From a virus: a stretch of 27,623 bases of DNA. Where the stretch lies: positions 1 through 27,623 of the IMG/VR virus record IMGVR_UViG_3300031616_000021. The stretch is one strand, 5' to 3'. The notes beneath the pieces are model-generated. The model made no database searches and was not told where the DNA came from. It saw only the letters and a program-made list of their open reading frames with translations. Positions 3,474 to 19,209 of the stretch are shown here, piece by piece. Position 1 is the first letter of the stretch, and each line of letters begins with the position of its first letter. The position numbers and the translations under genes were made by a program.

Positions 3474-3908
3474 TTACCCAGCAAGGTGCTTGCGTAGTTC
3501 CGCGATCTCGTCATCAATGTTTTGCGATTGTTCACCATCTATCCCAAGACGGTTGGCTATCTTGAGAAGTAATTCTCGCTGCGCCCTTGGCTGCACGTTT
3601 GATTCCAAGTGAGCAATGCGGGCGCGAGCCATAGCGCTACGCTCTACGCGAGCCGCAACTTCAACCTTGAGCTTCCAGCGCTTCGAGGCTTCATCCCATT
3701 CGTGATCCACATTCGGCTGCAGCGGTTGGTAGTCCACTACAAGTCCAGTGGCGATATCGACACGGCGGCTCAAATGATCATGCTCTCCCTCTACCGCGGA
3801 CTGCCCATCTGGAATGTTGACCAAAAGTGTAGATGCATCAGTGGCACCGAAGACTTGCCCGGTAAGCAATCCAGTTGCTTTGTCGTAGAAGGACCAATGA
3901 CGAATCAT
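3474..3908 (-). CDS. hypothetical protein coupled to the tail tip gene
   Basis: The 144-residue protein's ATG overlaps the stop of the large tip protein (ATGA), so it is probably translated with it. The N-terminal half looks beta-rich (HWSFYDKATGLLTGQVFG, then RRVDIATGLVVDYQP). The C-terminal half is a charged helical region (about 85-142) ending EIAELRKHLAG. Small genes directly behind tail tip or fibre genes often encode fibre-assembly chaperones or accessory tip proteins, but I see no diagnostic motif. There is no membrane segment. The call is deliberately generic. Confidence 0.6.
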   Translation of the reverse strand: MIRHWSFYDKATGLLTGQVFGATDASTLLVNIPDGQSAVEGEHDHLSRRVDIATGLVVDYQPLQPNVDHEWDEASKRWKLKVEVAARVERSAMARARIAHLESNVQPRAQRELLLKIANRLGIDGEQSQNIDDEIAELRKHLAG

Positions 3909-6900
3909 CGCTTCACTGCCTCTACCTTTAATGCAACACTAGTCACAGATACCCAATCGGACGGATGAGATACCGAATTTGCTGGCTGATACCATAACTT
4001 GGCTGTAATTGTGTCACCTAACGTCATGGTTGACACTATCTGCAGTGCATAGGTATTCACAGTTGGGCTTGCAGGAATTGTACCGACATACGTTATTGTT
4101 GACCCCAACAATGGCGAGGTAACTTCCAGCCACATAGTGTTTAATGAAGTTACATTAGTTGCTGTCCAACCTGCATTGAATGTACAAAGCGCAGTAGCCG
4201 TCCCATCCGTCAATGCAGTAAAAGATACCTGAACAACAACAGCTGGAGTTATTGGTGATGCGCTGAATCCATACGGTCCAGCCAATGTAGATTTGTAAAC
4301 ATCAGTAGCCGCGTTCGTGCCGATCTGAGACGTATCAGTGAGCTTCAAGTTAGTCGTCGGCCCAAACTGTATGCTATTGCAGCCTGCGCCTGATGCGAAG
4401 AATGAGGAATCCATGAAGAGGATCTTTCCCACTGCGCTGACGGTGCGCTTTGATACGCCGTCCATCAGATACGTAATAGTCGATCCATCGTAAGTGATAG
4501 CGAAAACGGTCGTTAGGCTGTAGCTTCCTAAGTTGGCTATCGAGCCTCCGTTCTCATAAATATACGCGCCAGCCGCTGCACAGTACCAAGCATAATCGAT
4601 CGATGTGAATGAAGAATCCTGGCCCGGTTTTGTCCCGAGGCCGACCATGAATGCATCTGCACCTGTGGTATTGGATTTGAACGATACATGCGCGTTCGGG
4701 TATCCCTCCAGAGAATAGACATCCGAGTCCCACACACCCGGAGTTCCGAGTTTGTAGATATTCTCGCCGCTGACAGTGCAGTTATTGCGCGCAACGAATG
4801 GCGACGAGTTGGCGGGGTTCAGCGCACCAAAATAGACATTGTCGACGGCGGCGGTTGGTTGGTTGAACGATGAGTCCATAAAGAACGTCTTGTTCGGATC
4901 GGCAACCGTCCGCCATTGCACGCCGTTTATAAAATAATTGACAAACCTTCCGTCGTACTTGATCTCGAAAATGTCGCTGGTCGTATAGGACCGAGTCGCC
5001 TGAATGAGAATCCCACTTTCGTATATGTATGCGATCCCATCGCCAGCTATATTCCAAGCGTGATCAATGCTGACGTAGCTCTGATCCGTCAACGGGTCAG
5101 AGTTGAGACCCATCAGCAGATAGAGATTGGTCTGCATGGGCCTGAATCTCACGGTGCAACCGCCTGAAAATGCATCGGCGGAATAGCAGTCCGAATCCCA
5201 GCCGACAGAACCTGTCGACTTCTTGAAAATCTGCGAGCCAACATTGACGCAGTCGCCCCTTGCGATGAGCGGAGTCGCACCAGGAGCTAGCAACTGTCCG
5301 TGGTTCTGACCCTGGAAGAACGCTTGAAAGGCAGGCACTTTCGAGATGTCTTGCGTGCCGCCGCCCCAGTAGTTCGAGCCCACGAATTTGAACCAGACCG
5401 GCTGTCCTGAAAGTCCCGGGTCAAATGGCATCCGAAAGATTGCATCATCCAAAATGGCGAAGAATGAACCGGCCGCGTGGGCTGCGATTGAGCTCCCATA
5501 GTTACCGCGCCTGAGATAGTTCAGCCGGAACGTATTGTTCCCCATCGGGATGACGTTCTGATAGCTGATGATCTCGCCGTCCACGATGCACAGGTTTCGC
5601 AGACCGTCTGCGGCAGCACGAGTGGCGGAGTCGAGCTCAACGGGAAGCGAGCCCGAGAACACGATCGTCAACTGATTCGTGGTATCCGGATCTGCTCCGC
5701 TCGGCAATGCATTGACTAGCGTTCCGTATCGACTCGGGCTGCTCTTGATGCCGACATGGTCGTACGTGATGTTGTCCAAGGAGGCGAATACATCCGCCCA
5801 GCCCCAGAGTCCCGTCAATCCGCAGACTGCAATCCATTCTTCGTAGCCGCTCTTGGCGAGTGCTGGAGGAGCGGTGAAGATGTAAGGTGTCGCCACATTA
5901 CCCGGATCGGCGCCATAGTTGGCGGCGTATCCTTGCGCCAATTCGGTATCGTAGAGTGGCGCACTCGCCGGCCCGACGAGTACTTCCTCAGCGGTGATGG
6001 TGAAGACTTCGCCGAGATCTGAATCAACAGCATCTTCAACTTTGGTGATTCTAACGAGCTTGTCGACGATCCCGCTGGTCGAGTCATCGATCGCGACGTA
6101 ATCCATGGGCTCGAGCAGGCTGAAGTCTGCGCGAACCTTGAAGGTGTACGTGGACCGTACGTAGAGGCTGCGAAAGCACAGCAGCGTCGCGACGCTGAGC
6201 GCTACCGAGGCGCGAGTGATCGAATGCAGCGTGACCGTCGGGGCAGGACGTTCGCCATTGATGGAAATATCCTGCTCGTCCTGAAAGGTCTCCGTGTCGA
6301 TGTTGTACTGATTGGCCCGATTGAGGTACTCGACAGTCCAGACGTTGAACGTCTGATTGGATGGGATTGGAGTTTCAACAACCGGCTGCTGGCCAGACTC
6401 ATAAAGGTAGTCGAGGTCACCAAACCGATAGAGCGGCGTGAGGTTGGGCGTATACGTCACGCCATTGCCCGTCACCGGCTGGTCGGCATACGGAACAATC
6501 CGAAGCCCCACGCCAGGGGTGAAGACCGCGTTCGAGTTGGTGAGCTGGAGAATCTCCCGCAGGAACTCCTGTGCCTGTCTCTGCGTGGTTTCCTGCGGCG
6601 AGATCAGGAAATCCATGGCGATGCAGTACGCCTGATAGGAATTGGTTCCCGTCAGGTTCGACAGATACGGGAATTTAACTCCATGGTTCGGATCGGTGCA
6701 ATAGTCGACGATGATCTGCGAGGGCTCCGCATCTGGCCCCCCCGCGTAGAGGACCAGTCCCTGGAGTTCGAAGGACAGATTCGGAAGTCCTGCCTGACCA
6801 CCCAAATCGAAGTTAGCCCCGTCGACATGCGCCATATGGTCATATGGCAAAGCATGGTCCGGATGCTTCGAGGTCATGTATGACCACGGCGCCTGGTTCC

Positions 6901-7243
6901 CAGCACCGTTGAACAGCGTCAGATTCAGCGCGGCGAGAGTCGTCTGCGTCTTGTCACTGTAGACCGCTGGGATGCCCTTGATCGGGCCTTCACATAGGAG
7001 CCCTACAATCGAGGCTGTATAGGTGTAACTCGACGTCGATCCGCCACCGCCGCCCTTACCACCTGACGACTGCGATTGCGGATGTGGAGTGAAGTCGACG
7101 TAATCGATCAACTTCATCGGCAAACGGGAAGTCCCGTATACCAGCGGAACTACGCTGCCGTAGAGGCTCTGATTGATGGCAATGCCGTTCAGGCGCGTCG
7201 GAGTGCTCGACTGCGCCTTGTTGCCTCCGAACAAGCCACCCAT
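3905..7243 (-). CDS. tail tip / central hub protein with two lectin-like repeats
   Basis: At 1112 residues this is the largest gene. The first ~600 residues resemble the tail hub proteins of gene-transfer-agent-like and related siphoviral tails: Gly-rich start MGGLFGGNK, short-chain hub strands, a Gly/Ser linker at 59-72, and an upper hub region to about residue 600. It follows the expected DUF2163-NlpC order, with its ATG overlapping the NlpC stop (TGATG). Residues about 663-808 and 819-963 are two copies of the same ~145-residue beta domain. Both contain WDSD, SIDHAW/SIDYAW, YIYE, IKYDG/ITYDG and FFMDSSF/LFMDSSF, with the look of LamG/concanavalin-type lectin folds. A further Ig-like C-terminal domain follows. 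The hub seals the tail tube and contacts the cell surface; the repeats probably bind glycans. Confidence 0.85.
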   Translation of the reverse strand: MGGLFGGNKAQSSTPTRLNGIAINQSLYGSVVPLVYGTSRLPMKLIDYVDFTPHPQSQSSGGKGGGGGSTSSYTYTASIVGLLCEGPIKGIPAVYSDKTQTTLAALNLTLFNGAGNQAPWSYMTSKHPDHALPYDHMAHVDGANFDLGGQAGLPNLSFELQGLVLYAGGPDAEPSQIIVDYCTDPNHGVKFPYLSNLTGTNSYQAYCIAMDFLISPQETTQRQAQEFLREILQLTNSNAVFTPGVGLRIVPYADQPVTGNGVTYTPNLTPLYRFGDLDYLYESGQQPVVETPIPSNQTFNVWTVEYLNRANQYNIDTETFQDEQDISINGERPAPTVTLHSITRASVALSVATLLCFRSLYVRSTYTFKVRADFSLLEPMDYVAIDDSTSGIVDKLVRITKVEDAVDSDLGEVFTITAEEVLVGPASAPLYDTELAQGYAANYGADPGNVATPYIFTAPPALAKSGYEEWIAVCGLTGLWGWADVFASLDNITYDHVGIKSSPSRYGTLVNALPSGADPDTTNQLTIVFSGSLPVELDSATRAAADGLRNLCIVDGEIISYQNVIPMGNNTFRLNYLRRGNYGSSIAAHAAGSFFAILDDAIFRMPFDPGLSGQPVWFKFVGSNYWGGGTQDISKVPAFQAFFQGQNHGQLLAPGATPLIARGDCVNVGSQIFKKSTGSVGWDSDCYSADAFSGGCTVRFRPMQTNLYLLMGLNSDPLTDQSYVSIDHAWNIAGDGIAYIYESGILIQATRSYTTSDIFEIKYDGRFVNYFINGVQWRTVADPNKTFFMDSSFNQPTAAVDNVYFGALNPANSSPFVARNNCTVSGENIYKLGTPGVWDSDVYSLEGYPNAHVSFKSNTTGADAFMVGLGTKPGQDSSFTSIDYAWYCAAAGAYIYENGGSIANLGSYSLTTVFAITYDGSTITYLMDGVSKRTVSAVGKILFMDSSFFASGAGCNSIQFGPTTNLKLTDTSQIGTNAATDVYKSTLAGPYGFSASPITPAVVVQVSFTALTDGTATALCTFNAGWTATNVTSLNTMWLEVTSPLLGSTITYVGTIPASPTVNTYALQIVSTMTLGDTITAKLWYQPANSVSHPSDWVSVTSVALKVEAVKR

Positions 7244-7674
7244 CAGATCACCGACCAGTATGAATCGAGGCGTTCCTGCATGGACGAACGCTCGCAGAGG
7301 ATCACTTGACCGTCTCTCTTGTGGGCATGAATCATGTGAATGTCAGAGACAATGATGGCTGCGTGGCTCGGATGCCTTCCGAAACGGAACATCGCGAAAT
7401 CCCCAGGCAATCCCTTATCAACTCGCTTGGAGTATCGCTCAACACCGTTCATGTACTTGGATTCGCTTTGATGCAAATGCCAATTTGAACTGTATGGCCT
7501 AGGATCAAAGTACTCTCTCGCGCCGACATTTGAGTACACTCGAATTAGCAACATCAAACAGTCAACGCATCCATTCGGACCCTTGATATCTCCACAATTT
7601 CCGTACGGTGTGCCCACCCACTCGTAGGCTTCGCGCACGATAGCGGCTCTCAGTTCGTCAGGGCTTGTATACAT
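7243..7674 (-). CDS. NlpC/P60 family tail-tip peptidase
   Basis: The protein has 143 residues from ATG 7674. The frame is open further upstream, but that part is a shadow of the DUF2163 gene and lacks domain character. With this start the two genes overlap by 17 bases. The NlpC/P60 pattern is clear: an N-terminal helix (LRAAIVREAYEWVGTPY), then the catalytic cysteine in GCVDCLML (Cys39), and the histidine in HPSHAAIIV (His104), with a third polar position probably in IHAHK. It is the putative phage cell-wall peptidase found between DUF2163 and the hub gene in many siphoviruses and gene transfer agents. It would cut peptidoglycan peptides during DNA entry. Confidence 0.87.
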   Translation of the reverse strand: MYTSPDELRAAIVREAYEWVGTPYGNCGDIKGPNGCVDCLMLLIRVYSNVGAREYFDPRPYSSNWHLHQSESKYMNGVERYSKRVDKGLPGDFAMFRFGRHPSHAAIIVSDIHMIHAHKRDGQVILCERSSMQERLDSYWSVI

Positions 7675-8668
7675 TTCGCTGCCCCAATCCCGATGAGAAT
7701 GGCGAACCCACTCCCGAGCCACCATCACCGCCAATGGACTGTGTTTGATTCTGGGTCGTGCCGCCGTCATAGAGCGTTTCCGGCACGGGCACGAAGAGAA
7801 TCCCTCGGAATCGGCCACCGTTGTTGAATGGCGGAGATATTGCAGAATTCGTGTTGATACAGGCCGCCCGAGTCTTTGGGCATCCTGGAAGCGCCGTGAA
7901 GAGATCACCAGCCTGCGGCACATTCGGCAGCGGTCTGACGAGCTGGAACTGACCGCTGGTGTGTGAAAATAACTTCACGAAATATGTAGTGCTGGGATTA
8001 GTGGCGTTCAGTCCAGACAAGAACGTGATCCGGCCCAGCGAGAAATACTTATCAGGCTGCGTCAGGTTGGTATTGACGTTGAGTACCGTGCTCCCACTCG
8101 CCACGGTTCCGTTGACTTGGAAATTGGCTGGCACCAATGCGCAGCCCGCATCGAATAGGGTATGACGACAGCGCTTCTCGATGAGGTTCGGAGGAGCACT
8201 GACGTTCAGCATCTCGCCATCAGAACTGATCTGGAACGACACCGTGAGTCGGCCGATATTCTCGACGTCCATCCGACCTTGGAAGGCGTCGACCTTGCCA
8301 TTAGACAGATCGTTGAAATCGGGCAGCATCATCTTCGAAAACAAAAGCCGAGCGCCGTCGAATACTCGCGCTCTGGCTGCCTTGATGAGTGGCAGCCCTG
8401 CAATCAACGGCGCTCCGGAACTGCTGTTCGGATTCGGCGAGAGAGTCAGCGGCATCTGATCGACTTCGAGACCGACTGTTTGCGTCCGAGTCCCGCGATT
8501 GATAATCAGTCCTGTTTGGTACAGTTGCCCACCGAAAGGGACAGGCACTTGATGCGACGTGAAATAGTATGTCGCCGCACCACCAGCTAACGTAATCGTA
8601 TAGAGGTCGATTCGCTTCATCTGGCCCGCGGCCATGGTAGCGAGTGTGCCGGAACTAGCGGGTAGCAT
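7658..8668 (-). CDS. DUF2163 / BR0599-type tail tip protein
   Basis: The 336-residue protein matches the DUF2163 family. Its N-terminal half carries the typical start (LATMAAGQMKRIDLYTITL) followed by the FTSHQVPVPFGGQLY stretch. The C-terminal half has the cysteine-containing family signature: a zinc-site-like cluster KRCRHTLFDAGC, and GCPKTRAAC followed by FNNGGRFRGI near residues 270-300. The start ATG directly abuts the TAA of the preceding gene. In gene-transfer-agent-like tails this protein sits between the DUF2460 and NlpC proteins and forms part of the distal tail/hub. The Gly/Ser-rich C-terminal extension after about 305 is longer than I would expect. Confidence 0.87.
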   Translation of the reverse strand: MLPASSGTLATMAAGQMKRIDLYTITLAGGAATYYFTSHQVPVPFGGQLYQTGLIINRGTRTQTVGLEVDQMPLTLSPNPNSSSGAPLIAGLPLIKAARARVFDGARLLFSKMMLPDFNDLSNGKVDAFQGRMDVENIGRLTVSFQISSDGEMLNVSAPPNLIEKRCRHTLFDAGCALVPANFQVNGTVASGSTVLNVNTNLTQPDKYFSLGRITFLSGLNATNPSTTYFVKLFSHTSGQFQLVRPLPNVPQAGDLFTALPGCPKTRAACINTNSAISPPFNNGGRFRGILFVPVPETLYDGGTTQNQTQSIGGDGGSGVGSPFSSGLGQRNVYKP

Positions 8669-10090
8669 TTAGACGATGACCGACTTTATTCGGAGTGATT
8701 GCAAATCCCACAATTTCGAAAGGAATTGCGATGGCTCCAGATCGTCCGTCTCGAATTGCGCGAGATAGTAGAAGCTTCCCGACCAAGTGAGAGTATGGCC
8801 GCTCGTGGGAGCGGTGTTGAATGTCACAATCCCAGTCGCGCCGATCGTATAGGCAGCGGTGGATACCAGGGATCCGTTGTCGAAGATGGCCGGCAACGCC
8901 TGTAGATTCTGGATGATCTCCGGTACTGACGGGCCGCCGACATTGCCGAAGGCCGCAATCAATTGGAATTGTGTCTTGGTTCCATTGCCCGTTCCAAACG
9001 GCTCAGTGGTAACCGTGTTGAATATCGGGTCGAGATACAGGAACGTGCCAGCCTGTGCCTGCTTTGCGTTGAACAATCCCTCGATCGCTCTCAGTTCGTC
9101 AACCGCGAGCGTCTGATTCAGCACCTCGTAGTTCAGATCCCAGTGGATAGTGGGATACTGCATGTACCCCAGCGTGGAGACCTTCTGCGCCAGCGTGCCT
9201 TGAAGCCCAGTACGGAACTCATAGGATCGCTTTGACTCAAAGGTGATTCCAGCGAGGTTTGGCGGAAAGAGATTCGGCACCGTCGTAAAGGTCGCGGCGT
9301 TGGAATGCGTGAACGTAATCGACAGTCCAGGCGCATTAATGACCGTGAACGGTGGAATGCTTTGCGTGATGATCGTGTTGAGCGGCAGACTAGAACTGAC
9401 AGCCGAACTCGAAGACGTCACACCCAAGGTCGTTAGGGTCGCTTGCGCTTGTGAGACTAGTTGCCCGCGGAAGTCCGGCAGGATCGCGATCACCGCGACT
9501 TGCTCGACCGAATCGCTGAACCGTCCATAGGGATCTGCCAGACGAACCGTGAAGCCGAAATTTCCGTAAGTGGTTGGAGTTCCGGTCGTTAGTCCCGTCG
9601 TCGAATTGATTGTGATTCCTGGAAACGGAGCACCACCGCCGAGGACCGTGAACGTGATGGTATCGTTCTGCAGATCCTTCGCCCGCAGTTGCATGTTCAG
9701 CGCCTGACCAATGGTGAAGGTGCCATTGCTGAACAAGGTTCCGTCGGGCGTATCTGGCTGCGGCGGATCGTCATTGACGGCAAGGGTACCCTCGCCATTC
9801 AGTCCGCTGGATGAGCGAAGGTCCGCCAGGACGAACTGGCGGGACTTATCACCTTGGGCCTCGTACCAATACGTACCATCTTGGCGTAGGTTCAGGCGGT
9901 AGAGACCCGAGGTCCAAACACTAGTGATATAGATATCGCCGTCGACGGCATTCGACGTGAAACGCGTCTTCAACGAATCGGCGCCACCTGGAGGGCTGCC
10001 CAGAGCGCGCAGCGTTTGGTATCCGAGAAGGGATCGACCGGCAAAGCCATCCCACCGGCGCAGAGTGCCGTTACAGATTCCTCGCAGCAT
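8669..10090 (-). CDS. Ig-like + PASTA-like + DUF2460 fusion tail protein
   Basis: The 473-residue protein is modular. Residues 1-108 are unassigned. Residues about 110-203 look like a cadherin/He-PIG Ig domain, with the typical ending GLTTGTPTTYGNFGFTV. Residues 205-262 resemble a PASTA repeat (PDFRGQLVSQAQATLTTLGV, then QSIPPFTVINAPG). Residues about 268-473 are a DUF2460 domain that aligns over its whole length with the separate 201-residue DUF2460 protein of this tail (shared GLFNA, FLYLDP, FNTVT, IIQN, FDNGS, LTW-GSFY, SVI). DUF2460 proteins are distal tail proteins. Here one occupies the usual slot before DUF2163, while its paralogue lies 4.5 kb upstream after the tape measure. PASTA and Ig domains suggest contact with cell wall or surface polymer. 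Confidence 0.78.
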   Translation of the reverse strand: MLRGICNGTLRRWDGFAGRSLLGYQTLRALGSPPGGADSLKTRFTSNAVDGDIYITSVWTSGLYRLNLRQDGTYWYEAQGDKSRQFVLADLRSSSGLNGEGTLAVNDDPPQPDTPDGTLFSNGTFTIGQALNMQLRAKDLQNDTITFTVLGGGAPFPGITINSTTGLTTGTPTTYGNFGFTVRLADPYGRFSDSVEQVAVIAILPDFRGQLVSQAQATLTTLGVTSSSSAVSSSLPLNTIITQSIPPFTVINAPGLSITFTHSNAATFTTVPNLFPPNLAGITFESKRSYEFRTGLQGTLAQKVSTLGYMQYPTIHWDLNYEVLNQTLAVDELRAIEGLFNAKQAQAGTFLYLDPIFNTVTTEPFGTGNGTKTQFQLIAAFGNVGGPSVPEIIQNLQALPAIFDNGSLVSTAAYTIGATGIVTFNTAPTSGHTLTWSGSFYYLAQFETDDLEPSQFLSKLWDLQSLRIKSVIV

Positions 10091-10096
10091 GGATGT

Positions 10097-10861
10097 TTAA
10101 TAGATCAGGATGGTATCGCCAGCGGCGAGCGCGCCACCCGGCAAGGACGCGCAGGTAAACCTACGACCTGAAGTGCCCACTTGATCGGCGAGAATAGTGC
10201 CAACCTCGCCAGTCTGAGTACCGCTCGTGACTTGGAAAGCTCGATTCTGGTTGACCGTAAAACCCACCGCCGAAGTGATGTCAGTACATTCGAAAGAGGT
10301 CGCGGTATTTGTGTAGGTACCGCTCACTGTTCCAGTGATTCGCTGATCGAGCTCCAATCCCAATTTGGCCACGCGCGAGGCGATGCCCCCGATCTGATTC
10401 ACATCCACGTCCAAAATGCCTGATGAGGCGGAAGCAGCGGAACCGCCGATCATTCGCAAATCGACCTGTGAGCCGAGGTCCACCAAGAAGCTTTGTGCAG
10501 AGCACTTGAATCCAGATGCTCTGACAGTGACGATGATATAACCCGCGTTGCCAACCGAAAATCGGGTATTGAGCAGTTGCAGTTCATACATGCCGGGATG
10601 ATTGGTTGCGTCGAACTCCTTAAATCGACAATGACCGGTCGACGGCGCAGCATATGTTCCGAGGGTGGCGATGGTGTCGATCGTTCCACCGGCTTGGCTA
10701 TAGACCGTTGCGGTCGGCTCGATATCGGCGGTCACTGCAATGGCCAATGTTGTCTCAGTGATCGCAAGGCCCACGAGACCACCACCTGTGGTGGACGTAT
10801 TGTCCATGAGCATGAATCTCAGGATTCCACTGCTCCAACCGTTTACCCGTGACAGCAACAT
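10097..10861 (-). CDS. beta-rich tail-associated protein, 254 residues
   Basis: The start ATG 10861 is well supported by GGAGG six bases upstream. The N-terminal ~120 residues look like the small Ig/BppU-like beta domain common in phage tail and baseplate proteins (GILRFMLMDNTSTTGGGLVG, then NHPGMYELQLLN, GYIIVTVRASGF). A helical linker follows (VDLRMIGGSAAS, then DVDVNQIGGIASRVAKLGLE). A C-terminal beta domain closes with AAGDTILIY. It belongs to the cassette between the two DUF2460 proteins and is probably a virion protein that bridges fibre-like components. No enzymatic motif is visible. The family assignment is by pattern only. Confidence 0.65.
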   Translation of the reverse strand: MLLSRVNGWSSGILRFMLMDNTSTTGGGLVGLAITETTLAIAVTADIEPTATVYSQAGGTIDTIATLGTYAAPSTGHCRFKEFDATNHPGMYELQLLNTRFSVGNAGYIIVTVRASGFKCSAQSFLVDLGSQVDLRMIGGSAASASSGILDVDVNQIGGIASRVAKLGLELDQRITGTVSGTYTNTATSFECTDITSAVGFTVNQNRAFQVTSGTQTGEVGTILADQVGTSGRRFTCASLPGGALAAGDTILIY

Positions 10862-10864
10862 TGA

Positions 10865-12091
10865 TTAGCCTCCAATCATGCCGCCGGAAAAGATTCCAGC
10901 CGGCAGCATCAGCCCAGAGCCACCACCACCGCCCGAGCCGGTCACTGTGATGGTGAAAAGATCCGAATCCGCCATCAGTGCCGAATTTCCTGAGCACGTA
11001 GCGCGGAAGAAACAGAGTGTGTTGGTCGCCGCTGAGGTCGGCGTACCACTGAATGAGCCGCTGGAAATAGCCAGACCCGGAATCGTCAGTGGCGAGACGC
11101 CAAAGCGATACACTGCAGCCCCGGAGGAAGCGGTCTGATCGTTGGCCACCAGCGCCGTCGTGCCATTCATCGCCAGCACGCGCGTGGGCGTACCGCCGCT
11201 CGTGAGCTTGATATAGTCGCCGGCAGCGATACCTGTTGCAGAGGTGAGCGGAACCTCACGTGCTGCAGTCAATGCACCCGTCGTCGTTGTCAGCGACGCG
11301 GGGGTTCCCAACTGACTCAGCGCGGAAGTAAACGCAGACGACACGTCATCGAAGACGTGCCCGGCATTCAGGTTGATGGCCGTGATTGCAGTACCGGCGG
11401 TATAGGAAAGGCTTCCGACCGGACCGCCCGTCATATACGTCTGGAAGTTCGGGTCAGACGTTCCGGCGCCCATCGTGCCGGATGGCGTCAGATCATTCGT
11501 GCCGATCTGGTCGCTGACGGGCGTTTCCGCAACTCCGCCCGACGTCGACATTTTCCAATAACTAACAGTTCCCTTGATCGCGCGGGGATTGCCACCACCG
11601 CCCAGATACGCCGCCTCGGTATCGCTGAGCGCCCGCGACCAAGCGGCTGCGTGCGCGGCCTGGCCATTGATGCCCGTTATAAAGTCGCTTGGCCGACCCG
11701 AGATAGTCAGGTTCGTCAGCGTAGCCGGCGAAACCGTAGTGCTCGAAGTCCCTTTGCTACCGCCGTTAAGATAGGCGGCGGCAGCGGAGGAGCCGGATAC
11801 TACAATGGCAGCATGTTGCCATGCGCTCGTGGTAATAGCGGTTGAGGATAGCGCTTGGTTTGAAGTGGTTGACGATACCCGATATGCGCTGACCTTATTC
11901 GTCGCGCCGCCGGTGATGTCCAGGATCGCGGCGATAACGCCCGTAGTCTCACTGGCGCCCGCTGACAGTTCGAACAATCGACGACCCTGGCCCCCAGTAA
12001 TATTCACCCAAATAACGAGCGATACGGGAGCGGCTGTGGCCGGCAACGAAGTGCTGGAAAGGTGCAGCGTTGAGGAGAAGGTTTGTGCCAT
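10865..12091 (-). CDS. LamG/concanavalin-like tail protein
   Basis: The protein has 408 residues. Residues about 1-190 show the LamG-3 pattern: VSLVIWVNITGG, then SAWQHAAIVVSGSSAAAAYLNG, INGQAAHAAAWSRALSDTEA, and the strand VSYWKMS. Such jelly-roll lectin domains usually bind carbohydrate or act as trimeric spike domains. Residues about 225-385 look like an Ig/He-PIG domain with a small inserted beta unit (REVPLTSATGIAAGDYIKLT). The end is a Gly-rich tail (GGGGGSG, then FSGGMIGG) that could be disordered or pack against a partner. It lies inside the cassette bracketed by DUF2460 proteins and is probably a receptor-binding or spike component. There is no good ribosome site at ATG 12091; coupling to the upstream gene is likely. 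Confidence 0.68.
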   Translation of the reverse strand: MAQTFSSTLHLSSTSLPATAAPVSLVIWVNITGGQGRRLFELSAGASETTGVIAAILDITGGATNKVSAYRVSSTTSNQALSSTAITTSAWQHAAIVVSGSSAAAAYLNGGSKGTSSTTVSPATLTNLTISGRPSDFITGINGQAAHAAAWSRALSDTEAAYLGGGGNPRAIKGTVSYWKMSTSGGVAETPVSDQIGTNDLTPSGTMGAGTSDPNFQTYMTGGPVGSLSYTAGTAITAINLNAGHVFDDVSSAFTSALSQLGTPASLTTTTGALTAAREVPLTSATGIAAGDYIKLTSGGTPTRVLAMNGTTALVANDQTASSGAAVYRFGVSPLTIPGLAISSGSFSGTPTSAATNTLCFFRATCSGNSALMADSDLFTITVTGSGGGGGSGLMLPAGIFSGGMIGG

Positions 12092-12097
12092 TAGTTG

Positions 12098-14647
12098 CTA
12101 CTGCGGATAACCGGGAGGATAGGCGGTCACAGCCATCGAACAGCCGGACCCTGGTCCAGAGTTAGACTCAACTCCTGAATAGAACGTGTTGCCCGTCAGC
12201 ACATCAATAATGTTCGGCCGAGACGCCGTTGAACCCGCGCCAGGACCTGGAGTTGGATTTGCAGGAGAACCGCTGTAACCACGGCGGTTTACCGGAGGTC
12301 CGCCGAATGCATCCACATAGATATCCACGTGGGAAGATTTCATCACGTTGATGCGCGTCCAGATGCCGGGATGGCCTGAACCACTCTTGTCGTAGTAGAG
12401 TCCTGAGCCGTAGGTAGCAGGCGGAATAGCGGCGGCTCCATTGGAGTTGAGCCACAACTCGGCCGGGTCAATGTTGCACTGGTAGTCCCAGTCCGTTCCG
12501 CCGCCATTCACGGTCGTGTGATTCACCGGAGTACTGGCCCACTGACCCAAGTAGGCTTTCTGACCCCAGTCGCTGCGGCTGTCGGCGCAATCCTCAGTGC
12601 CCCACGATATGAAGTTCGCTTTCGCCGCACTCATCATGGCCGGGTACGAACTACCATCGTTCGGATTGATGTAGGTTGGCTTGACGGTGATCACCGTTTT
12701 AGGAGCTGCCTGACGCAGTCCTGCCATCAGTGAGGGCCACACAGCGAGCAGCGCAGAGGGGCTGTATCCTTTTGCGCCCGCGTTGACAGAGATTTCTTGA
12801 TATGGGTCCCAGCGATAAATTCCGCCGGTGTTTGTATCGGGCCCAAATTCCGCGTAGTAGGCCGCGAAAAGCGCAATCACCCGGTTCGTGACGTTCTGAT
12901 TCCAGATGACAAGATAGGGTCTGTCGAGCGGCGTTCCGTTGGAGGCAAGATGAGTTTCACCACCGCCGTATGCCGGGTCGTTCATGTACGAGGGACAGAA
13001 ACTCGATAGGAAATTCGTCGTACTCTGAGAGCTATATCCGTTGCCGCCCCCATTTAACAAAATGGTCAAATCGCGCGGCGGACTGTAACTCTTGAGCAGG
13101 TTGATAATGTTCCTGATCTTCGTGAAGCCATTCTCAGTACCGAAGTTGTCATACTGACCGAGCGTTGGCCCTTCCAACTGTGCCATCGTCGGCGAGATGC
13201 AAATTCCCTTGATCTGATTGTTGATGTCCAACGCAATGATCGAATCCAGATTCGATTTCAGCGTCGCGAACGACTGCATGTTCGCATAGCCGCCAATGCG
13301 AATACGTATACCCGGCTTCCAGACGATGGAGCCTGTCGTAGTGGTTTGAGTCTTGGGAACTCCCTGGATTGCAGTGGATAGCGCGGAGGAATTGTTATTC
13401 GCATCCCACGAACGCAACTGGATCGAGACCGGTGAGGATGCATTGACGGTCGCAGTCAGAGGCGTTCCAGAAGTAATGGACACTTCCTCGACGTTTGCCG
13501 TGGCTATGGTTCCAGCCGACTGGGATGTGAGGAAACCTCCATAATTGACGGAGGCGCCCATAGTGAGCGTCTGGACCGTAATCTGATTACGACCCAACTC
13601 GTTCAGAGAGTAGGAGATCGTCCAAGTCTTGTTATCAGCGGCCCGCTGGATGAACACATAGACTGGGCCGACGATGGGCTGACCGTTCTTGTCATTGATC
13701 TGCGTGGCGACCTGACTGCTGGTACCGCTGACCGCCGAACGTGATATGACATACAGGCCGACAGTTCCATTGCTGGGCCGTAATCCGATGCAGATAAATC
13801 GCCCGCCAGCCGCTGCCGTCTCATGGACCATGATGCCGCTGAGTGCCGTCGAGGCGCTCGAGGTATACGGATCCAGCAGCGCGACGATCTGCTGCGCGCC
13901 GCTATACGGGCCGAAGTTGTAGAACAGGCACTGTTCAGAGGCGGTTGCCGCGATTCCAGTTCCAGCCGCTGAAGCGCTCCATACCTTTCCAGCCTGAGAC
14001 AGGGCTGGACTCGTCGCCATGGACCCGATGTTGACGATCGTCGGCGTCGGAAGTGAATTTGACAGGGTGACGATGGGACTGGGAGGGCTGACGGCTCCAT
14101 TGACGAGGAGATCGATGTGCGTGGCGCCGCTGGCAGGCGTAGAGCCTGGTGCGACGTCGCTCGGTTGATCGCAGGTCACTGCGATCGTACCCACTACCGA
14201 TCCCGGGACCGCCGTTATCGAGGTAGGTACGGTGGGTGCAACATTGTCGACTGCAGCGGCAGTTGAACTGATCGCAAACGAGATGGGGTTACTGAGACGG
14301 CTAATGCCATTCCTGACTGCCACCAGGCGGAAAGCACCGGTTGTAATCAGCGTGCATGCATTGGATAGCACGGTTCCAGATATCGAAAAGCCGGCCGGTA
14401 AAGCCGGCTGACCTGAAACGTAGTTGAAGCCGAGCTCAGACGAGGGTGATCCCGGATCGACGAAGAATCCGATATCTGCAAGATCGATTGAGAGCGCGGT
14501 TCCGACTTGCAGTTGTGACAGATCCGGCTGAAGCGTCGAGGTCCAGGACGGAGTTGATCCAGACCCGTCCGCACCCGTAGTAAATGCGGAGTCAATGCGG
14601 CCCGTCGGCGTCAGTGCAATGACGCTGTTTTGAAGTCCGAATGCCAT
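12098..14647 (-). CDS. multidomain tail spike candidate with glycoside-hydrolase-like C terminus
   Basis: The protein has 849 residues. In order I see an Ig-like region (about 30-130), a fibronectin-III-like segment (about 137-190), a concanavalin-like beta-sandwich (about 215-395), the end of a second FN3-like segment, and from about 446 to 790 an alternating alpha/beta region. That region is reminiscent of a glycoside hydrolase TIM barrel: strands KGICIS, DLTILLNG, RPYLVIWN, GIYRWDPYQEIS, TVITVKPTY, ANFISWGTED. Candidate catalytic acids are Glu618 (YQEIS) and Glu685 (WGTED). A Pro/Gly-rich stretch and a Cys-containing end follow. The most economical reading is a tail-borne depolymerase acting on capsule or O-antigen. 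Enzyme activity is inferred from pattern, not shown by a named family match. Confidence 0.65.
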   Translation of the reverse strand: MAFGLQNSVIALTPTGRIDSAFTTGADGSGSTPSWTSTLQPDLSQLQVGTALSIDLADIGFFVDPGSPSSELGFNYVSGQPALPAGFSISGTVLSNACTLITTGAFRLVAVRNGISRLSNPISFAISSTAAAVDNVAPTVPTSITAVPGSVVGTIAVTCDQPSDVAPGSTPASGATHIDLLVNGAVSPPSPIVTLSNSLPTPTIVNIGSMATSPALSQAGKVWSASAAGTGIAATASEQCLFYNFGPYSGAQQIVALLDPYTSSASTALSGIMVHETAAAGGRFICIGLRPSNGTVGLYVISRSAVSGTSSQVATQINDKNGQPIVGPVYVFIQRAADNKTWTISYSLNELGRNQITVQTLTMGASVNYGGFLTSQSAGTIATANVEEVSITSGTPLTATVNASSPVSIQLRSWDANNNSSALSTAIQGVPKTQTTTTGSIVWKPGIRIRIGGYANMQSFATLKSNLDSIIALDINNQIKGICISPTMAQLEGPTLGQYDNFGTENGFTKIRNIINLLKSYSPPRDLTILLNGGGNGYSSQSTTNFLSSFCPSYMNDPAYGGGETHLASNGTPLDRPYLVIWNQNVTNRVIALFAAYYAEFGPDTNTGGIYRWDPYQEISVNAGAKGYSPSALLAVWPSLMAGLRQAAPKTVITVKPTYINPNDGSSYPAMMSAAKANFISWGTEDCADSRSDWGQKAYLGQWASTPVNHTTVNGGGTDWDYQCNIDPAELWLNSNGAAAIPPATYGSGLYYDKSGSGHPGIWTRINVMKSSHVDIYVDAFGGPPVNRRGYSGSPANPTPGPGAGSTASRPNIIDVLTGNTFYSGVESNSGPGSGCSMAVTAYPPGYPQ

Positions 14648-14651
14648 GTTG

Positions 14652-15257
14652 TTACAAAATGACGCTGGAAAATGGGAGGCTATCGAGTTTCCACCAGTTC
14701 TTCAGGAACTGCTGCGCGTCGAGCGTGTCACTCGTAAAATGGCAGCGCTGATAGAAGCTCCCCGTCCATGTCAGGATGTGACCAGTAGCGGGAGGAGATG
14801 AAAACGTTAAAACACCGGTTGGCCCGAGCACAGAGCTACCAGCAGGGCTGCCGTTATCGAAAAATGAAGGAGCGCCGTTAAAATTCTGGATGATGTCAGG
14901 TCCACCAGGGCCTCCAGTATTCTGAAACGTGGCAATGATCTGAAAGGCCGTTGTGGTTCCATCGCCCACGCCAAACTTTTCTGCGGTGACCGTGTTGAAA
15001 ACAGGATCCAGATAGAGGAACGAATCGAATCGGCCTCCGCAGGCATTGAAGAGACCCTGAATAGCACGGTATTCCGAAGGCGTGACGTCATCGCGAAGCA
15101 ACTCGTATTGCAGTTCGTACGAGTGCACCGCATATTGCTGGAGCGCCAAGTTTGCCACTTGATTGGCGACGGACGTGTCTGACAATGTCTTGTAGGATGT
15201 CGTCCGCTTGACCGGGAATCTCAGTCCCGGCAGGCTCGGCAGGACGAGGCTACTCAT
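14652..15257 (-). CDS. DUF2460 distal tail protein (stand-alone copy)
   Basis: The 201-residue protein has a clear DUF2460 pattern: an N-terminal strand PGLRFPVKRTTSYKT, the central RAIQGLFNA helix, FLYLDPVFNTV, the GTTTAFQI strand, FDNGSPAG and the terminal WKLDSLPFSSVIL. In gene-transfer-agent-like tails this is the protein placed after the tape measure that starts the distal tail tip. Its ATG comes 1 base after the tape-measure stop region. The same domain recurs as the C-terminal part of the 473-residue protein downstream, so this phage has two DUF2460 copies per genome, possibly forming successive or mixed rings. Confidence 0.88.
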   Translation of the reverse strand: MSSLVLPSLPGLRFPVKRTTSYKTLSDTSVANQVANLALQQYAVHSYELQYELLRDDVTPSEYRAIQGLFNACGGRFDSFLYLDPVFNTVTAEKFGVGDGTTTAFQIIATFQNTGGPGGPDIIQNFNGAPSFFDNGSPAGSSVLGPTGVLTFSSPPATGHILTWTGSFYQRCHFTSDTLDAQQFLKNWWKLDSLPFSSVIL

Positions 15258-15260
15258 TCA

Positions 15261-17717
15261 CTAACCCAACTTGAATCGATGTCCGAGCTGTCTGAGCATG
15301 GCAGCCAGTTGGTCGCTCGTGAATACGTCGCCTTTCTTGCCATGAATGTGCACGATACCGGCACGACCCGAGTTACTATTATCATCGCCGCTTGCCATTC
15401 GCCGAACGGCATTTGCCTCCGGAGCTGGCAATACCATTTCACGCTGATGCAATTGGACAACCGGATTGATACCGGAAGGGACGCTATAGCCCTGCTCGGC
15501 CGCAAGCCCCGCGTTATAGGATTCCGCGATGGCGAAGGTGCTTGCCCCGACTCCCGGCGCCATGGCCCAACCAATGAATGGAATTGCAGCAACGGATGCC
15601 ATTGCGGCAGTCGCGGCAACTGCCGCATTTGCAGATATTTGACTCGCCGCAGTTGTCTTTCCGATCAACATTTGGGCGATCTGATTGGTGAGCCAATCCG
15701 CCGCCATCTGTGCCAACGCCTGCGTTACCGAGTCGACAATTGAACTGAAAAGACCCTGAATCGTCGTCTTCAGAGACGCAGTACCATTCAAAAAATTCTT
15801 GATAACCCCTGAAAATCCACTATTCATGCTGCTGAAGATGCCAGTCCAGTACTTGGATTGCTCTACGGTCGACTGATTGGCAATCTGATTCATGCGCTTC
15901 CCATGCTGAAGCGCCAACTGCTCTATCTGCGCATTGATCTTTGCAACCTCAACCGGATTTTTGTCCGGCGAGCGTGCCGCGAGAGCCAATTCCTGCTGCA
16001 AGGCCTGAAGCTTGATTTGATAGCGGCGGTTCTCGAAATCCCGCTCCTGCGCGAGTAACTTGGCGTTGGTCTGTATACCCAGAGACACACCGAGTTTTGC
16101 CTGCTCCTCTTCGCGATCAACGGCCCCGAGCTGCATCTCTTCCGTAATTTTCAGACGCTGCTGTTCTATCTGCTGGAGTTGAGAGGCCTTCTCTCGCTCA
16201 ATGCTCACGACTTCTTTAGCAGCAGTGGCATACTCCTTGGAGTCACTGCCGTAAGCAGCGCCGATTCTCGCGGCGTACTCCTTGGCAATAGCGAGCTTCG
16301 CATCCAGGTTGTTCTTGAATGCGGCCTCTTCCTCTTTCAACTGCGCGAGCTGGGCATCGAACCCATCCTTGGCGATCTCCACCCGAAGTCGCGCCACCTC
16401 CATCTCGACGCCAATCCGCTCGTTCTTCGATAGATCCACGCGCTGCGCGATTCCACTCCAATAAGAAAGCTCAGCCTCTTTGCTGAATTCCAGAAACTGC
16501 CCGTGCGCGGCATTCTCTTCGGCGAAGCTTGCCTTTCGCTGTTCGAGTTCGAGTTTGAATTCCGGGATGCGGGAATTCTTTGGATCTGCGGTCGGCGCGC
16601 TGCCGCCCCCAGTAGGTCGCGGGATTTCCTTATTCTCCGGATCCTTCTGCTGCAGGAAATCTATCGACCATATCTTTCTGATGCGCGTGGACGATGCCTT
16701 TGCATCCGCTTCCATTCGATCATAGGTCTGCTTTCCAATCGCATTCAGATCTGCGAGCCCTTTATTCCATGCGTCCTTCGCTCCATGGAAGTCCAATACG
16801 AAAGCGCGACCAATCACTGTTGCCACGGTGACTGCGAGCGAGGCCAGTTGTTGGAATCCGCCGCGGAATAATTCGAAGATGAAATTAGCCGCCGCGTTCA
16901 GCCCCTCGAAGGCAAGTTGCAGAGTGCCCACGGCTTGACGAAAAGTGGCGACAACCTGAGGCCCAATGTCCCCGAACCACTGCCCCATCGCGGTGAGAAT
17001 CGGTAGCAGGGCATCGCCGATGACTTTCCAAACACCCTCGATAGTCTCATGCACTTCGTTCATCGCAGTGCGATATGCTTTGGTTGCGGCAACATCCTTG
17101 CTGCCAACCTCCAGTCCCAATGCTTCAGCGCGCTTCTTGGCCTCCTCCATCGTTTCAGCGGTGAGCTTGATAGTCGGCGCGACTTCGGCCCATGCCTTGC
17201 CGTAAATGCGCTGCCCTTCAACGTTGCGGTCAGTGCCTTGCTTGAGAGCGGCGAGTTTCTCGTTGACATCCAGAATGATGTCGAGCGTGTTGCGGTATTC
17301 GCCGTTCTGGTCGCGCGTGGCGACACCCAGTGACTTGAACGCATCCTCGTGGCTTCGCAAGGATCGTGTCACAGCATTGCCGGCAGCAGCGAGTTGGTCC
17401 TGTGTCACGAATACGGATGCGAGCGCCACCTTCAGGTCAGAAGCTTCAGTCGCACTGATGCCGAATTGGCGCCCGAGTGCCACCGATTCCTTGGTGAGAT
17501 TCACGCTCGCGTCAATGGCTTCCTTGAAGACCTTACCGCCCGCTAGTACAGCCGTGAATGCTACGAAGACCTTGTTGATTTTCTCGAACGTACTCCCCAC
17601 GCTTTCAAATGAGGACTTCATCGACTCCGTGGCGCCGGTAACCGCCGCCCGGGCTTCCGCCAATGCCGTCAGGAGCGGCGCATTATTGCCGGTGATTTGG
17701 AGACTGATATCGGCCAT
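15261..17717 (-). CDS. tail tape measure protein
   Basis: The 818-residue protein is long and mostly helical, sized for a medium-length siphoviral tail. It has the usual parts: an N-terminal coiled coil, a hydrophobic hairpin region (about 50-65 and 280-318), a long charged coiled coil rich in Glu, Lys, Gln and Ala (about 385-620), then a hydrophobic Ala-rich segment (about 690-725, AAVAATAAMASVAAIPFIGW) and a polar C terminus. It sets tail length by acting as scaffold for tube subunits with the G/GT chaperones, and it probably inserts into the host membrane on ejection. Its start overlaps the stop of the GT frame (TAATG). Its place directly after the chaperones is canonical. Confidence 0.92.
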   Translation of the reverse strand: MADISLQITGNNAPLLTALAEARAAVTGATESMKSSFESVGSTFEKINKVFVAFTAVLAGGKVFKEAIDASVNLTKESVALGRQFGISATEASDLKVALASVFVTQDQLAAAGNAVTRSLRSHEDAFKSLGVATRDQNGEYRNTLDIILDVNEKLAALKQGTDRNVEGQRIYGKAWAEVAPTIKLTAETMEEAKKRAEALGLEVGSKDVAATKAYRTAMNEVHETIEGVWKVIGDALLPILTAMGQWFGDIGPQVVATFRQAVGTLQLAFEGLNAAANFIFELFRGGFQQLASLAVTVATVIGRAFVLDFHGAKDAWNKGLADLNAIGKQTYDRMEADAKASSTRIRKIWSIDFLQQKDPENKEIPRPTGGGSAPTADPKNSRIPEFKLELEQRKASFAEENAAHGQFLEFSKEAELSYWSGIAQRVDLSKNERIGVEMEVARLRVEIAKDGFDAQLAQLKEEEAAFKNNLDAKLAIAKEYAARIGAAYGSDSKEYATAAKEVVSIEREKASQLQQIEQQRLKITEEMQLGAVDREEEQAKLGVSLGIQTNAKLLAQERDFENRRYQIKLQALQQELALAARSPDKNPVEVAKINAQIEQLALQHGKRMNQIANQSTVEQSKYWTGIFSSMNSGFSGVIKNFLNGTASLKTTIQGLFSSIVDSVTQALAQMAADWLTNQIAQMLIGKTTAASQISANAAVAATAAMASVAAIPFIGWAMAPGVGASTFAIAESYNAGLAAEQGYSVPSGINPVVQLHQREMVLPAPEANAVRRMASGDDNSNSGRAGIVHIHGKKGDVFTSDQLAAMLRQLGHRFKLG

Positions 17718-18363
17718 TAGGTTCTCGTATTGCCCATCGCACCGAAGAGTTCATCCAACAGGCGATTGCCATGGTCAGCCACTTCCACTTTGGGCTTCTC
17801 GGGTTTGATTCCAAAGTAGGCGGCGACCATGATGTGCAACGGAGGATGCGATCGACTGTAGTCGTTGAAGGCCTCTACGTCCGACAGATCCCACTCAGCG
17901 GCGATCTGTGCCCGCGTCTGGCCGGTACTGACCATCAGATGACTGTAGAGCTCGCCCCAGTTGACTCGCTGTTCTTGATCGCCGCCAGCGCTTTTCCCGC
18001 TTCGATTTCCTTGCGCTTCAGGCCTGAGATATCCATGAGTGCGCCCATCATGTCCTGCATGTTGGCCAGATCGAGTGTCTGCTCAATCAACCACAATGGC
18101 ACGCCGCGATAATTGCGTCTGAGCGCGAGACGGATCGCCTCCAGGATGGTCTGCATGGACTGCAGATCCATAGGCCCCACCTTGGAAAGCTTGTCCTGCA
18201 GCCTCTCCAAGGCACCCAGGTTGAGCGGTGGCAATTCAAGATCCACCTGGACGAATGCCCCAATCGGCTCGCCCTCTGCATCCGGTTCGCAACCGCTGAA
18301 CCGAAAGACAATACCCTCTCGAAAGGCCGGCATTTCTTCAAATCCCGGCAACATGCCGATCAT
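17717..18363 (-). CDS. tail assembly chaperone G-T, -1 frameshift product
   Basis: If ribosomes slip back one base at GGGAAAA (17998-17992), the 124 residues of G continue into a frame encoding 91 more residues, giving a 215-residue G-T protein. The sequence just after the slip (VNWGELYSHL) runs directly into MVSTGQTRAQIAAEWDL and HPPLHIMVAAYFG. This is a typical T-domain pattern in which an Asn-Trp-Gly motif precedes an EWDL and a PPLH motif. Part of this domain lies upstream of the only ATG of the downstream frame (17935), so independent initiation there would lose conserved residues. G-T recruits tail-tube subunits to the tape measure and is not in the virion. The fusion is inferred from sequence logic, very much as in lambda G/T. 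Confidence 0.82.
17935..18363 (-). CDS. tail assembly chaperone G
   Basis: The protein has 142 residues from ATG 18363, which overlaps the tube gene stop (TGATG) and has GGAG six bases upstream. A TTG at 18375 opens the frame earlier but has no ribosome site. The N-terminal part is beta-rich with a tail-chaperone flavour (GIVFRFSGCEPDAEGEPIGA); the middle is helical (ALERLQDKLSKVG, then IRLALRRNYRGVPLWLIEQT). A slippery heptamer at codons 123-124 lets a fraction of ribosomes make the longer G-T. The gene sits between tube and tape measure, the canonical position. The most abundant product should be this unshifted form. Confidence 0.85.
   Translation of the reverse strand: MIGMLPGFEEMPAFREGIVFRFSGCEPDAEGEPIGAFVQVDLELPPLNLGALERLQDKLSKVGPMDLQSMQTILEAIRLALRRNYRGVPLWLIEQTLDLANMQDMMGALMDISGLKRKEIEAGKALAAIKNSESTGASSTVI
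17992..17998 (-). promoter_or_regulatory. -1 ribosomal frameshift site GGGAAAA
   Basis: Read on the minus strand, the heptamer is G-GGA-AAA in the G frame, the canonical X-XXY-YYZ arrangement, close to the GGGAAAG site of lambda G/T. It lies 18 codons before the G stop. The -1 frame is open from here through the whole downstream T-like frame. Confidence 0.83.
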
Positions 18364-19166
18364 CAGTTGCTCCAAGAGATAGTGAACGGGCTCGACTGCC
18401 CCGGCGCGAACGCCGACACATCAAATTCTGGATATGTGAAATCATCGAGCTTGGTGGCAAGCGCGAACTTCGTCGACACGCAATTTGGAAACGTCAAGTT
18501 GACCGCACCACCGAGTGGTGAGGGAATCTTGATGTCCAGTTGGAAGTACGGTGATTGGCCCATGAGCTGGTTTTGCACGACCAACTTCTGCGCGACAGTC
18601 GATGTCGCCGTATAGTTGTAGTCGATGTATACCGTCTTGCCAACGTCAGCAGCAGCGAACAGATAGGCGCCGCCGGTAAGTGAATACTGCCCCGTGGTGG
18701 GCGCGCTCGCGACCCTCGCATAGGGCAGCCCGTTGGAATCCCGAACGCCGAGGTTGTATCCATAGATGCCGGCCGCATCCGGTATCTGCACGTGCGTCGT
18801 ATCAGCCGCAGCCGTCGATACCGTCACGGTAAACGGAGTCGCCGGGATCGCAATACCGGTTGAATCGTACACGGCATTGTAAGTAGCAGTTGAGAGCGAC
18901 TGCCCAAAATACAACGCATTCCACAAGCGGCCGTGCAACTGAGCGTTCTTGATTTTGACGGCCAGTTTTTGCTTACCGCGAGCCACCGCGAGTGCGAAGG
19001 AGTTCTGACCAAACAACTCCTTGATATCAGCGGAGCCGTCGATCGAGATATCCTGCATGCCAGCGATGAGAATCGGCGGCGGATTCGCGATGGTGTTGCC
19101 TTGTGAGTCAGTCTGCTGCGTCGCCCAGGCCGTGCCGGCGCCGAAGAGATATAACGGATTGGCCAT
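18363..19166 (-). CDS. major tail tube protein
   Basis: The protein has 267 residues from ATG 19166, preceded by GGAGAAG at five bases. An upstream in-frame ATG (19202) lies within the terminator hairpin and adds no plausible sequence. The product is beta-rich with the usual N-terminal pattern of siphoviral tube proteins: MANPLYLFGAGTAWATQQ, then ISIDGSADIKELFGQNSFAL, and GKQKLAVKIKNAQLHGRLWN. A variable central region follows, then a compact end (KLDDFTYPEFDVSAFAPGQ). Its position between the tail terminator and the G/GT chaperones is the standard one. It probably builds the hexameric tube rings. A terminator just upstream suggests its transcript dose is set separately. Confidence 0.85.
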   Translation of the reverse strand: MANPLYLFGAGTAWATQQTDSQGNTIANPPPILIAGMQDISIDGSADIKELFGQNSFALAVARGKQKLAVKIKNAQLHGRLWNALYFGQSLSTATYNAVYDSTGIAIPATPFTVTVSTAAADTTHVQIPDAAGIYGYNLGVRDSNGLPYARVASAPTTGQYSLTGGAYLFAAADVGKTVYIDYNYTATSTVAQKLVVQNQLMGQSPYFQLDIKIPSPLGGAVNLTFPNCVSTKFALATKLDDFTYPEFDVSAFAPGQSSPFTISWSN

Positions 19167-19178
19167 TCGAGCTTCTCC

Positions 19179-19209
19179 AAAAAAAGAAAGCCCCGCATAC
19201 AAGCGGGGC
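19179..19209 (-). terminator. Rho-independent terminator upstream of the tail tube gene
   Basis: On the minus strand a perfect 7-bp GC-rich stem (GCCCCGC / GCGGGGC) with a 6-base loop is followed by TTTCTTTTTTT. It lies 13 bases upstream of the tube ATG and 34 bases after the previous stop. On the plus strand no T tract follows, so it works leftwards only. It would reduce read-through of late transcripts into the tail genes unless overridden by antitermination. Confidence 0.82.

Follow-up and report, generated by a model that had tools for sequence, protein, structure and literature searches.

Two diverged distal tail proteins encoded around three putative adhesin genes in a gene-transfer-agent-like phage tail tip

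Introduction

The closest described counterparts of the locus analysed here are the tail tips of the gene transfer agent RcGTA and of roseophage R4C, which have one hexamer of a Rcc01695-type distal tail protein (Dit) (PMC7296036, PMC10276861). In these particles a single Dit ring must fit both a six-fold tube and a three-fold hub. The R4C Dit presents its long loop on the hub side and its short loops, alpha1 and the beta2-alpha2 loop on the tail-tube side (PMC10276861), and in RcGTA hub and megatron are bound by the N-terminus, the long loop and the C-terminus of Dit (PMC7296036). Three other arrangements are relevant. Two Dit hexamers have been proposed in one tip for the baseplate of lactococcal phage p2 (PMC7472080), the only instance of a duplicated Dit found in our literature search; in T5 an additional tube-like ring of p140, above Dit, carries the fibre collar (PMC10038345); and in the evolved Dits of lactococcal and other phages Dit itself carries binding domains (PMC10688798).

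A sequence-only reading of a viral record had pointed to two paralogous DUF2460 domains, the family of these distal tail proteins, on either side of three genes. We have asked what this arrangement is, how widely it occurs and how it may have arisen.

Results

A tail-tip operon with two DUF2460 copies

The window, that is the whole stretch of DNA analysed, is a viral record of 27.6 kb (27,623 nucleotides) that carries a tailed phage's late genes; all window genes described below lie on the minus strand. The late genes include small and large terminase, a head-tail joiner, a lambda-type portal, a capsid fused to a protease, a tail terminator, a tail-tube candidate (18363-19202), tape measure, tail tip, endolysin and a possible spanin. 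The capsid fusion places a prohead protease (S78, a weak match) and the major capsid protein in a single 674-aa frame (20875-22899).

The GTA-like order of RcGTA and R4C—tape measure, Dit, hub, NlpC/P60, megatron—is present: an 818-aa tape measure (15261-17717; PHROG phrog_2854, E 2.8e-31), the upstream neighbour of the first Dit; a hub with DUF2163/Gp84_N and BR0599 regions (7658-8668; PF09931, E 2.1e-24, and PF09356, E 4e-9); an NlpC/P60 peptidase (7243-7923; PF00877, E 1.1e-5), the start of which is uncertain and may truly lie at about 7854; and an 1112-aa megatron-like tail protein (3905-7243; PF13550, E 5.2e-20, and Rcc01698_C, E 1.5e-15). In place of the one Dit gene expected between tape measure and hub there are two copies with three genes between them, all on the minus strand exactly as first noted and separated by gaps of 0-6 bases. 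The locus is an operon for the tail tip of a long-tailed phage, and this tip is gene-transfer-agent-like.

The viral record that contains the tail tip also contains terminase, portal, capsid and endolysin genes. A 105.8-kb relative (the contig of loci L091 and L201) encodes QueC, GTP cyclohydrolase I and QueF of the 7-deazaguanine pathway (L201:4390-7147); no integrase match was found in it, and it appears to be a large lytic phage. Together, the window's terminase, portal, capsid and endolysin and the metabolic genes of this relative suggest that we are dealing with ordinary phages rather than with a gene transfer agent.

The copy next to the tape measure, D1, is a stand-alone DUF2460 distal tail protein of 201 aa (14652-15257; PF09343, E 6e-22), conserved in four lineages. 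The second, D2, makes up residues 268-473 (206 residues; 8669-9289) of a 473-aa protein (8669-10090), where it follows an N-terminal domain, an Ig-like He_PIG domain (residues 121-194; 9509-9730; PF05345, E 2e-7) and a PASTA domain (residues 204-261; 9308-9481; PF03793), both above cut-off. The profile search thus bore out the proposed fusion: PF09343 matches residues 280-471 above cut-off (E 4.6e-22), and the orthologues of all four lineages are fused alike, with PASTA above cut-off in 4/4 and He_PIG in 3/4. PF09343 covers most of the domain in D1 and D2; NCBIfam TIGR02217 matches them solely below its cut-off. The whole record contains exactly these two DUF2460 places. The copies are identical at 91 of 197 positions (46%; E 1e-60), far beyond chance and close to the "roughly half" originally estimated by eye.

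Both copies match solved Dits, a profile reaching that of RcGTA at 5.5e-17 and that of R4C at 1.2e-10. When the 473-aa protein was modelled with AlphaFold (mean pLDDT 76), the solved fold that the model matched best was the R4C Dit 8gtc_G (E 4.3e-9; TM 0.72 by target length), and the best viral match was Gp83 from phage PhiJL001; the Dit fold of core plus insertion domain is present, the model comparison being for D2 alone. Judged by sequence, D1 and D2 are genuine Dit-type DUF2460 proteins in a GTA-like tail module.

Fusion raises the question of whether both copies form rings. One of them could be the tip ring while the other, D2 or D1, is a decoration that anchors adhesins without completing a ring on the tube, as might be expected from the frequent fusion of DUF2460 to binding or enzyme domains and from the Ig and PASTA domains of D2. 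Fused DUF2460s elsewhere, however, are usually the sole Dit, so that fusion does not abolish ring function, and the core and insertion domains are kept in both copies, which are alike in overall fold and length. We consider a purely decorative copy unlikely.

The layout is conserved and uncommon

A search of relatives for the same three-gene insertion, which had been put forward as a check, was successful: the order tape measure, D1, three genes, D2, hub, NlpC, megatron recurs in eight other viral contigs. In five from IMG/VR (3300025941_000121, 3300026035_000135, 3300028536_000023, 3300005563_000031, 3300025949_000037) tape measure through hub are collinear, and NlpC and megatron then follow save where the contig ends; 3300010400_000037, 3300005842_000214 and 3300012927_000225 agree as far as their ends allow. 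By sequence there are four lineages, the window's own included, across which identity to the window is 54-61% for D1 and 44-50% for D2. Between the window and a close relative (L003) dN is about 0.09 for D1, for D2 and for the hub alike, and synonymous sites are saturated or nearly so; both DUF2460 copies are thus constrained: substitutions are mostly synonymous, and both D1 and D2 are under purifying selection.

These data bear on the idea that recombination in a gene-receiving interval merely left behind a second Dit and its cargo, a neutral by-product with no special architecture. It would fit the assorted genes found before or after a single Dit in four relatives (L111, L116, L071, L083), but the order and both Dits have been kept at the divergence just given, and a useless copy should have decayed rather than accumulate mostly synonymous changes. 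We regard this account as very improbable.

That a second DUF2460 is unusual for GTA-like tails, as first claimed, was confirmed in sequenced Pseudomonadota, where 88 of 398 genomes have a DUF2460 match and none of the 88 has two listed places on one contig. Scans of sequenced bacterial genomes found no two-Dit module. Cultured-phage records gave a few distant DUF2460 matches, one place per record, none of which covers the Ig/PASTA part; and among the loci compared 111 have the usual layout, a lone DUF2460 without a wide gap on either side (in a few cases the same contig is counted again). The layout is thus real, conserved and uncommon. It had been put forward as a possible new tail-tip architecture; what is new is a variation on a GTA-like plan that was already known.

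Other phages show other layouts. In L024 (5772-10609; contig 3300025916_000004, a phage with an integrase) two full DUF2460s, 57% identical to each other, bracket three genes for proteins of 230, 480 and 460 aa, which have no Pfam match and are unrelated to the window's three. L081 (6979-10651) arranges two copies in a third way: first comes a GTA_TIM protein whose C-terminal DUF2460 has no insertion domain, then an ORF that looks methylase-like by eye, then a normal DUF2460. In L120, L121, L123, L135-L138 and L143, which are relatives of the two-Dit group, the only Dit is interrupted near position 132 of its DUF2460 by an insertion of about 160-220 aa, and L143 has a second insertion near position 61; related phages also resort to fusion (L115) or have other genes next to one Dit, as in L116 and in L111, where a GH26 protein is encoded there.

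Origin of the pair

D1 and D2 orthologues form separate groups in two trees, with supports of 95/97 and 98/93 in one and 81/71 and 97/94 in the other. The nearest relative of D2 in the trees is the sole Dit of L015, the N-terminal extension of which aligns weakly with the Ig part of the 473-aa protein. A single clade of D1 and D2 is rejected (AU test, p 0.024), which disfavours a simple local duplication; D2 may be an acquisition. It was probably not copied from D1 within the lineage, its likely source being a Dit with an N-terminal extension.

The L024 copies, by contrast with D1 and D2, are sisters (99/97). That they share the duplication of the window group is disfavoured, since their grouping with D1 or with D2 is rejected (p 0.019 and 0.010). 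The two-Dit layout, on this phylogenetic evidence, arose at least twice, in the window group and independently in L024, around different genes.

The earlier suggestion of one duplication in which a spike cassette was captured therefore lacks support on several counts: the two copies are not each other's closest relatives, modules of the cassette occur in phages without DUF2460 (below), the L024 layout surrounds three unrelated genes, and L111 and L116 have genes beside a single Dit.

The three intervening genes

The sequence-only reading had counted exactly three large proteins between the copies; there are three, of which the smallest, at 254 residues, is not large. They are a protein of 849 aa (12098-14647), conserved over its N-terminal ~430 aa and with a C-terminus that varies between lineages, as seen by alignment, there being no family match; one of 408 aa (10865-12091) with a LamG/concanavalin-like, putatively sugar-binding domain (PF13385, E 2.6e-10) and a conserved Gly-rich C-terminus; and one of 254 aa (10097-10861), the N-terminal ~115-150 aa of which are a widespread phage module.

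A hydrolase-like region had also been proposed in the 849-aa protein. No Pfam, PHROG or NCBIfam match supports it and no solved-structure relative was found, and the model (mean pLDDT 41) is too poor for a fold search. It is a reading of the alignment only: the C-terminus shows alternating strands and helices in that poor model and acidic residues at matching alignment places, which suggests a possible TIM-barrel hydrolase. This C-terminal domain (12098-13360) is swapped among close relatives (L003, L005, L006, L091) that share the N-terminal ~430 aa, an exchange like that seen in receptor-binding or depolymerase proteins. The protein has no similarity to the GH26 protein of L111.

The N-terminal domain of the 254-aa protein occurs at 37 other viral loci outside the module, in frames of ~130 to 1212 aa; no Pfam or PHROG family match was found for this N-terminal third in the four tested. 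The 254-aa protein is not similar to TP901-1 ORF48 (BppU), nor to the small tail ORF T5.143 of T5, considered as a p132 candidate.

Two phages, which we read as P22-like, carry relatives of these modules. L159, in which the portal belongs to phrog_156, lacks DUF2460 but encodes relatives of three modules: the N-terminus of the 849-aa protein, the N-terminal part of the 473-aa protein and the 254-aa domain. L162 shares that portal family and also encodes an Hc3 head-closure protein; of the three modules it has the latter two. The cassette is thus made of general phage appendage modules, not tied to the Dit pair. It is plausible that the three intervening proteins are adhesins docked on D1/D2 rings.

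Reciprocal conservation of ring faces

D1 and D2 were each scored against a profile built from 19 relatives that have one copy, with the faces taken from the R4C and RcGTA cryo-EM structures. The tube-facing motif LRD..PS of the beta2-alpha2 loop is kept in D1 (residues 54-62; 15072-15098) and changed in 5/5 D2 orthologues (residues 324-332 of the 473-aa protein; 9095-9121). The hub-facing long-loop motif (Q, SGK, S, Y, P) is mostly kept in D2 (residues 292-313; 9152-9217) and changed in D1 (residues 22-43; 15129-15194). In statistical terms D1 retains the tube-binding loop but not the hub-binding N-terminal strand and long loop, and D2 shows the reverse; the contrast between the faces, tube minus hub, amounts to 2.46 (permutation p 0.0009; 2/195 circular shifts). 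The short loop, which also faces the tube, and the C-terminal strand do not separate D1 from D2 significantly. Gene order agrees with the faces, D1 adjoining the tape measure gene and D2 the hub gene.

The sample is 5+5 sequences, the pattern had been seen before it was tested, and it was not seen in the two L024 copies, for which reason we have dropped it as a general rule. The reciprocal conservation is accordingly support rather than proof for two stacked rings; of the origins and architectures first envisaged, two successive distal-tail rings is the one that it favours.

The same test bears on a single mixed hexamer, in which three D1 and three D2 subunits would alternate so that two specialised subunits bring the six-fold tube to the three-fold hub and megatron. 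Odd and even RcGTA Dit subunits already differ in the long loops by which they reach hub and megatron (PMC7296036), and D1 and D2, having kept fold and length, could presumably share a ring. Both copies would then touch the tube, though, and the tube-facing loop of D2 is changed in every orthologue; a mixed ring seems to us an outside chance.

Discussion

In the reading that we prefer, the single distal-tail ring of the GTA-like tip would have become two: a D1 hexamer would cap the tail tube, and a D2 hexamer would lie below it, on the hub/megatron trimer. The Ig and PASTA domains of D2, together with the three intervening proteins, would form a host-binding collar at or near the double ring. 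Given the conserved faces, a D1 ring on the tube with a D2 ring stacked below it on the hub is an evenly balanced proposition. Tips with two rings have precedents in p2, with its two Dit hexamers, and in T5, with its additional p140 ring. The fuller proposal—that two Dit genes yield stacked tube- and hub-specialised rings with a collar, encoded between them, held at the ring-ring junction, and that this has been reached at least twice independently, in the present group and in L024—is a tentative one, and somewhat doubtful.

Two diverged Dits in a single tail would let each interface be studied alone, and a two-Dit tail would show how a phage adds a level to its tip for more host-binding parts. 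The recurrence in L024 suggests a repeatable route to such a layout, and the mapped surfaces of D1 and D2 offer a direct binding test with recombinant proteins.

Certain likenesses are to single Dits. The insertion-type relatives (L120, L123 and others) resemble the evolved Dits of lactic-acid-bacteria phages; an evolved Dit has its insertion inside a single protein, whereas the window has a second Dit with an N-terminal extension, and so is not of that type. Such N-terminal fusion is what D2 has in common with single DUF2460s bearing large extensions (GTA_TIM/NCTSP, F5/8 type C), which are usually the sole Dit; L081, with its reduced DUF2460 and a normal one, is the exception. Nor is the extra copy like T5 p140, which resembles a tail tube protein, since it is Dit-type. 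In p2 both hexamers come from a single gene and are placed back to back, whereas the window has two diverged genes. The nearest systems remain RcGTA and R4C, which share with the window the order and families of tape measure, Dit, hub, NlpC and megatron; in place of their one Dit hexamer, the window encodes two Dits, with three genes between them and Ig and PASTA domains on the second.
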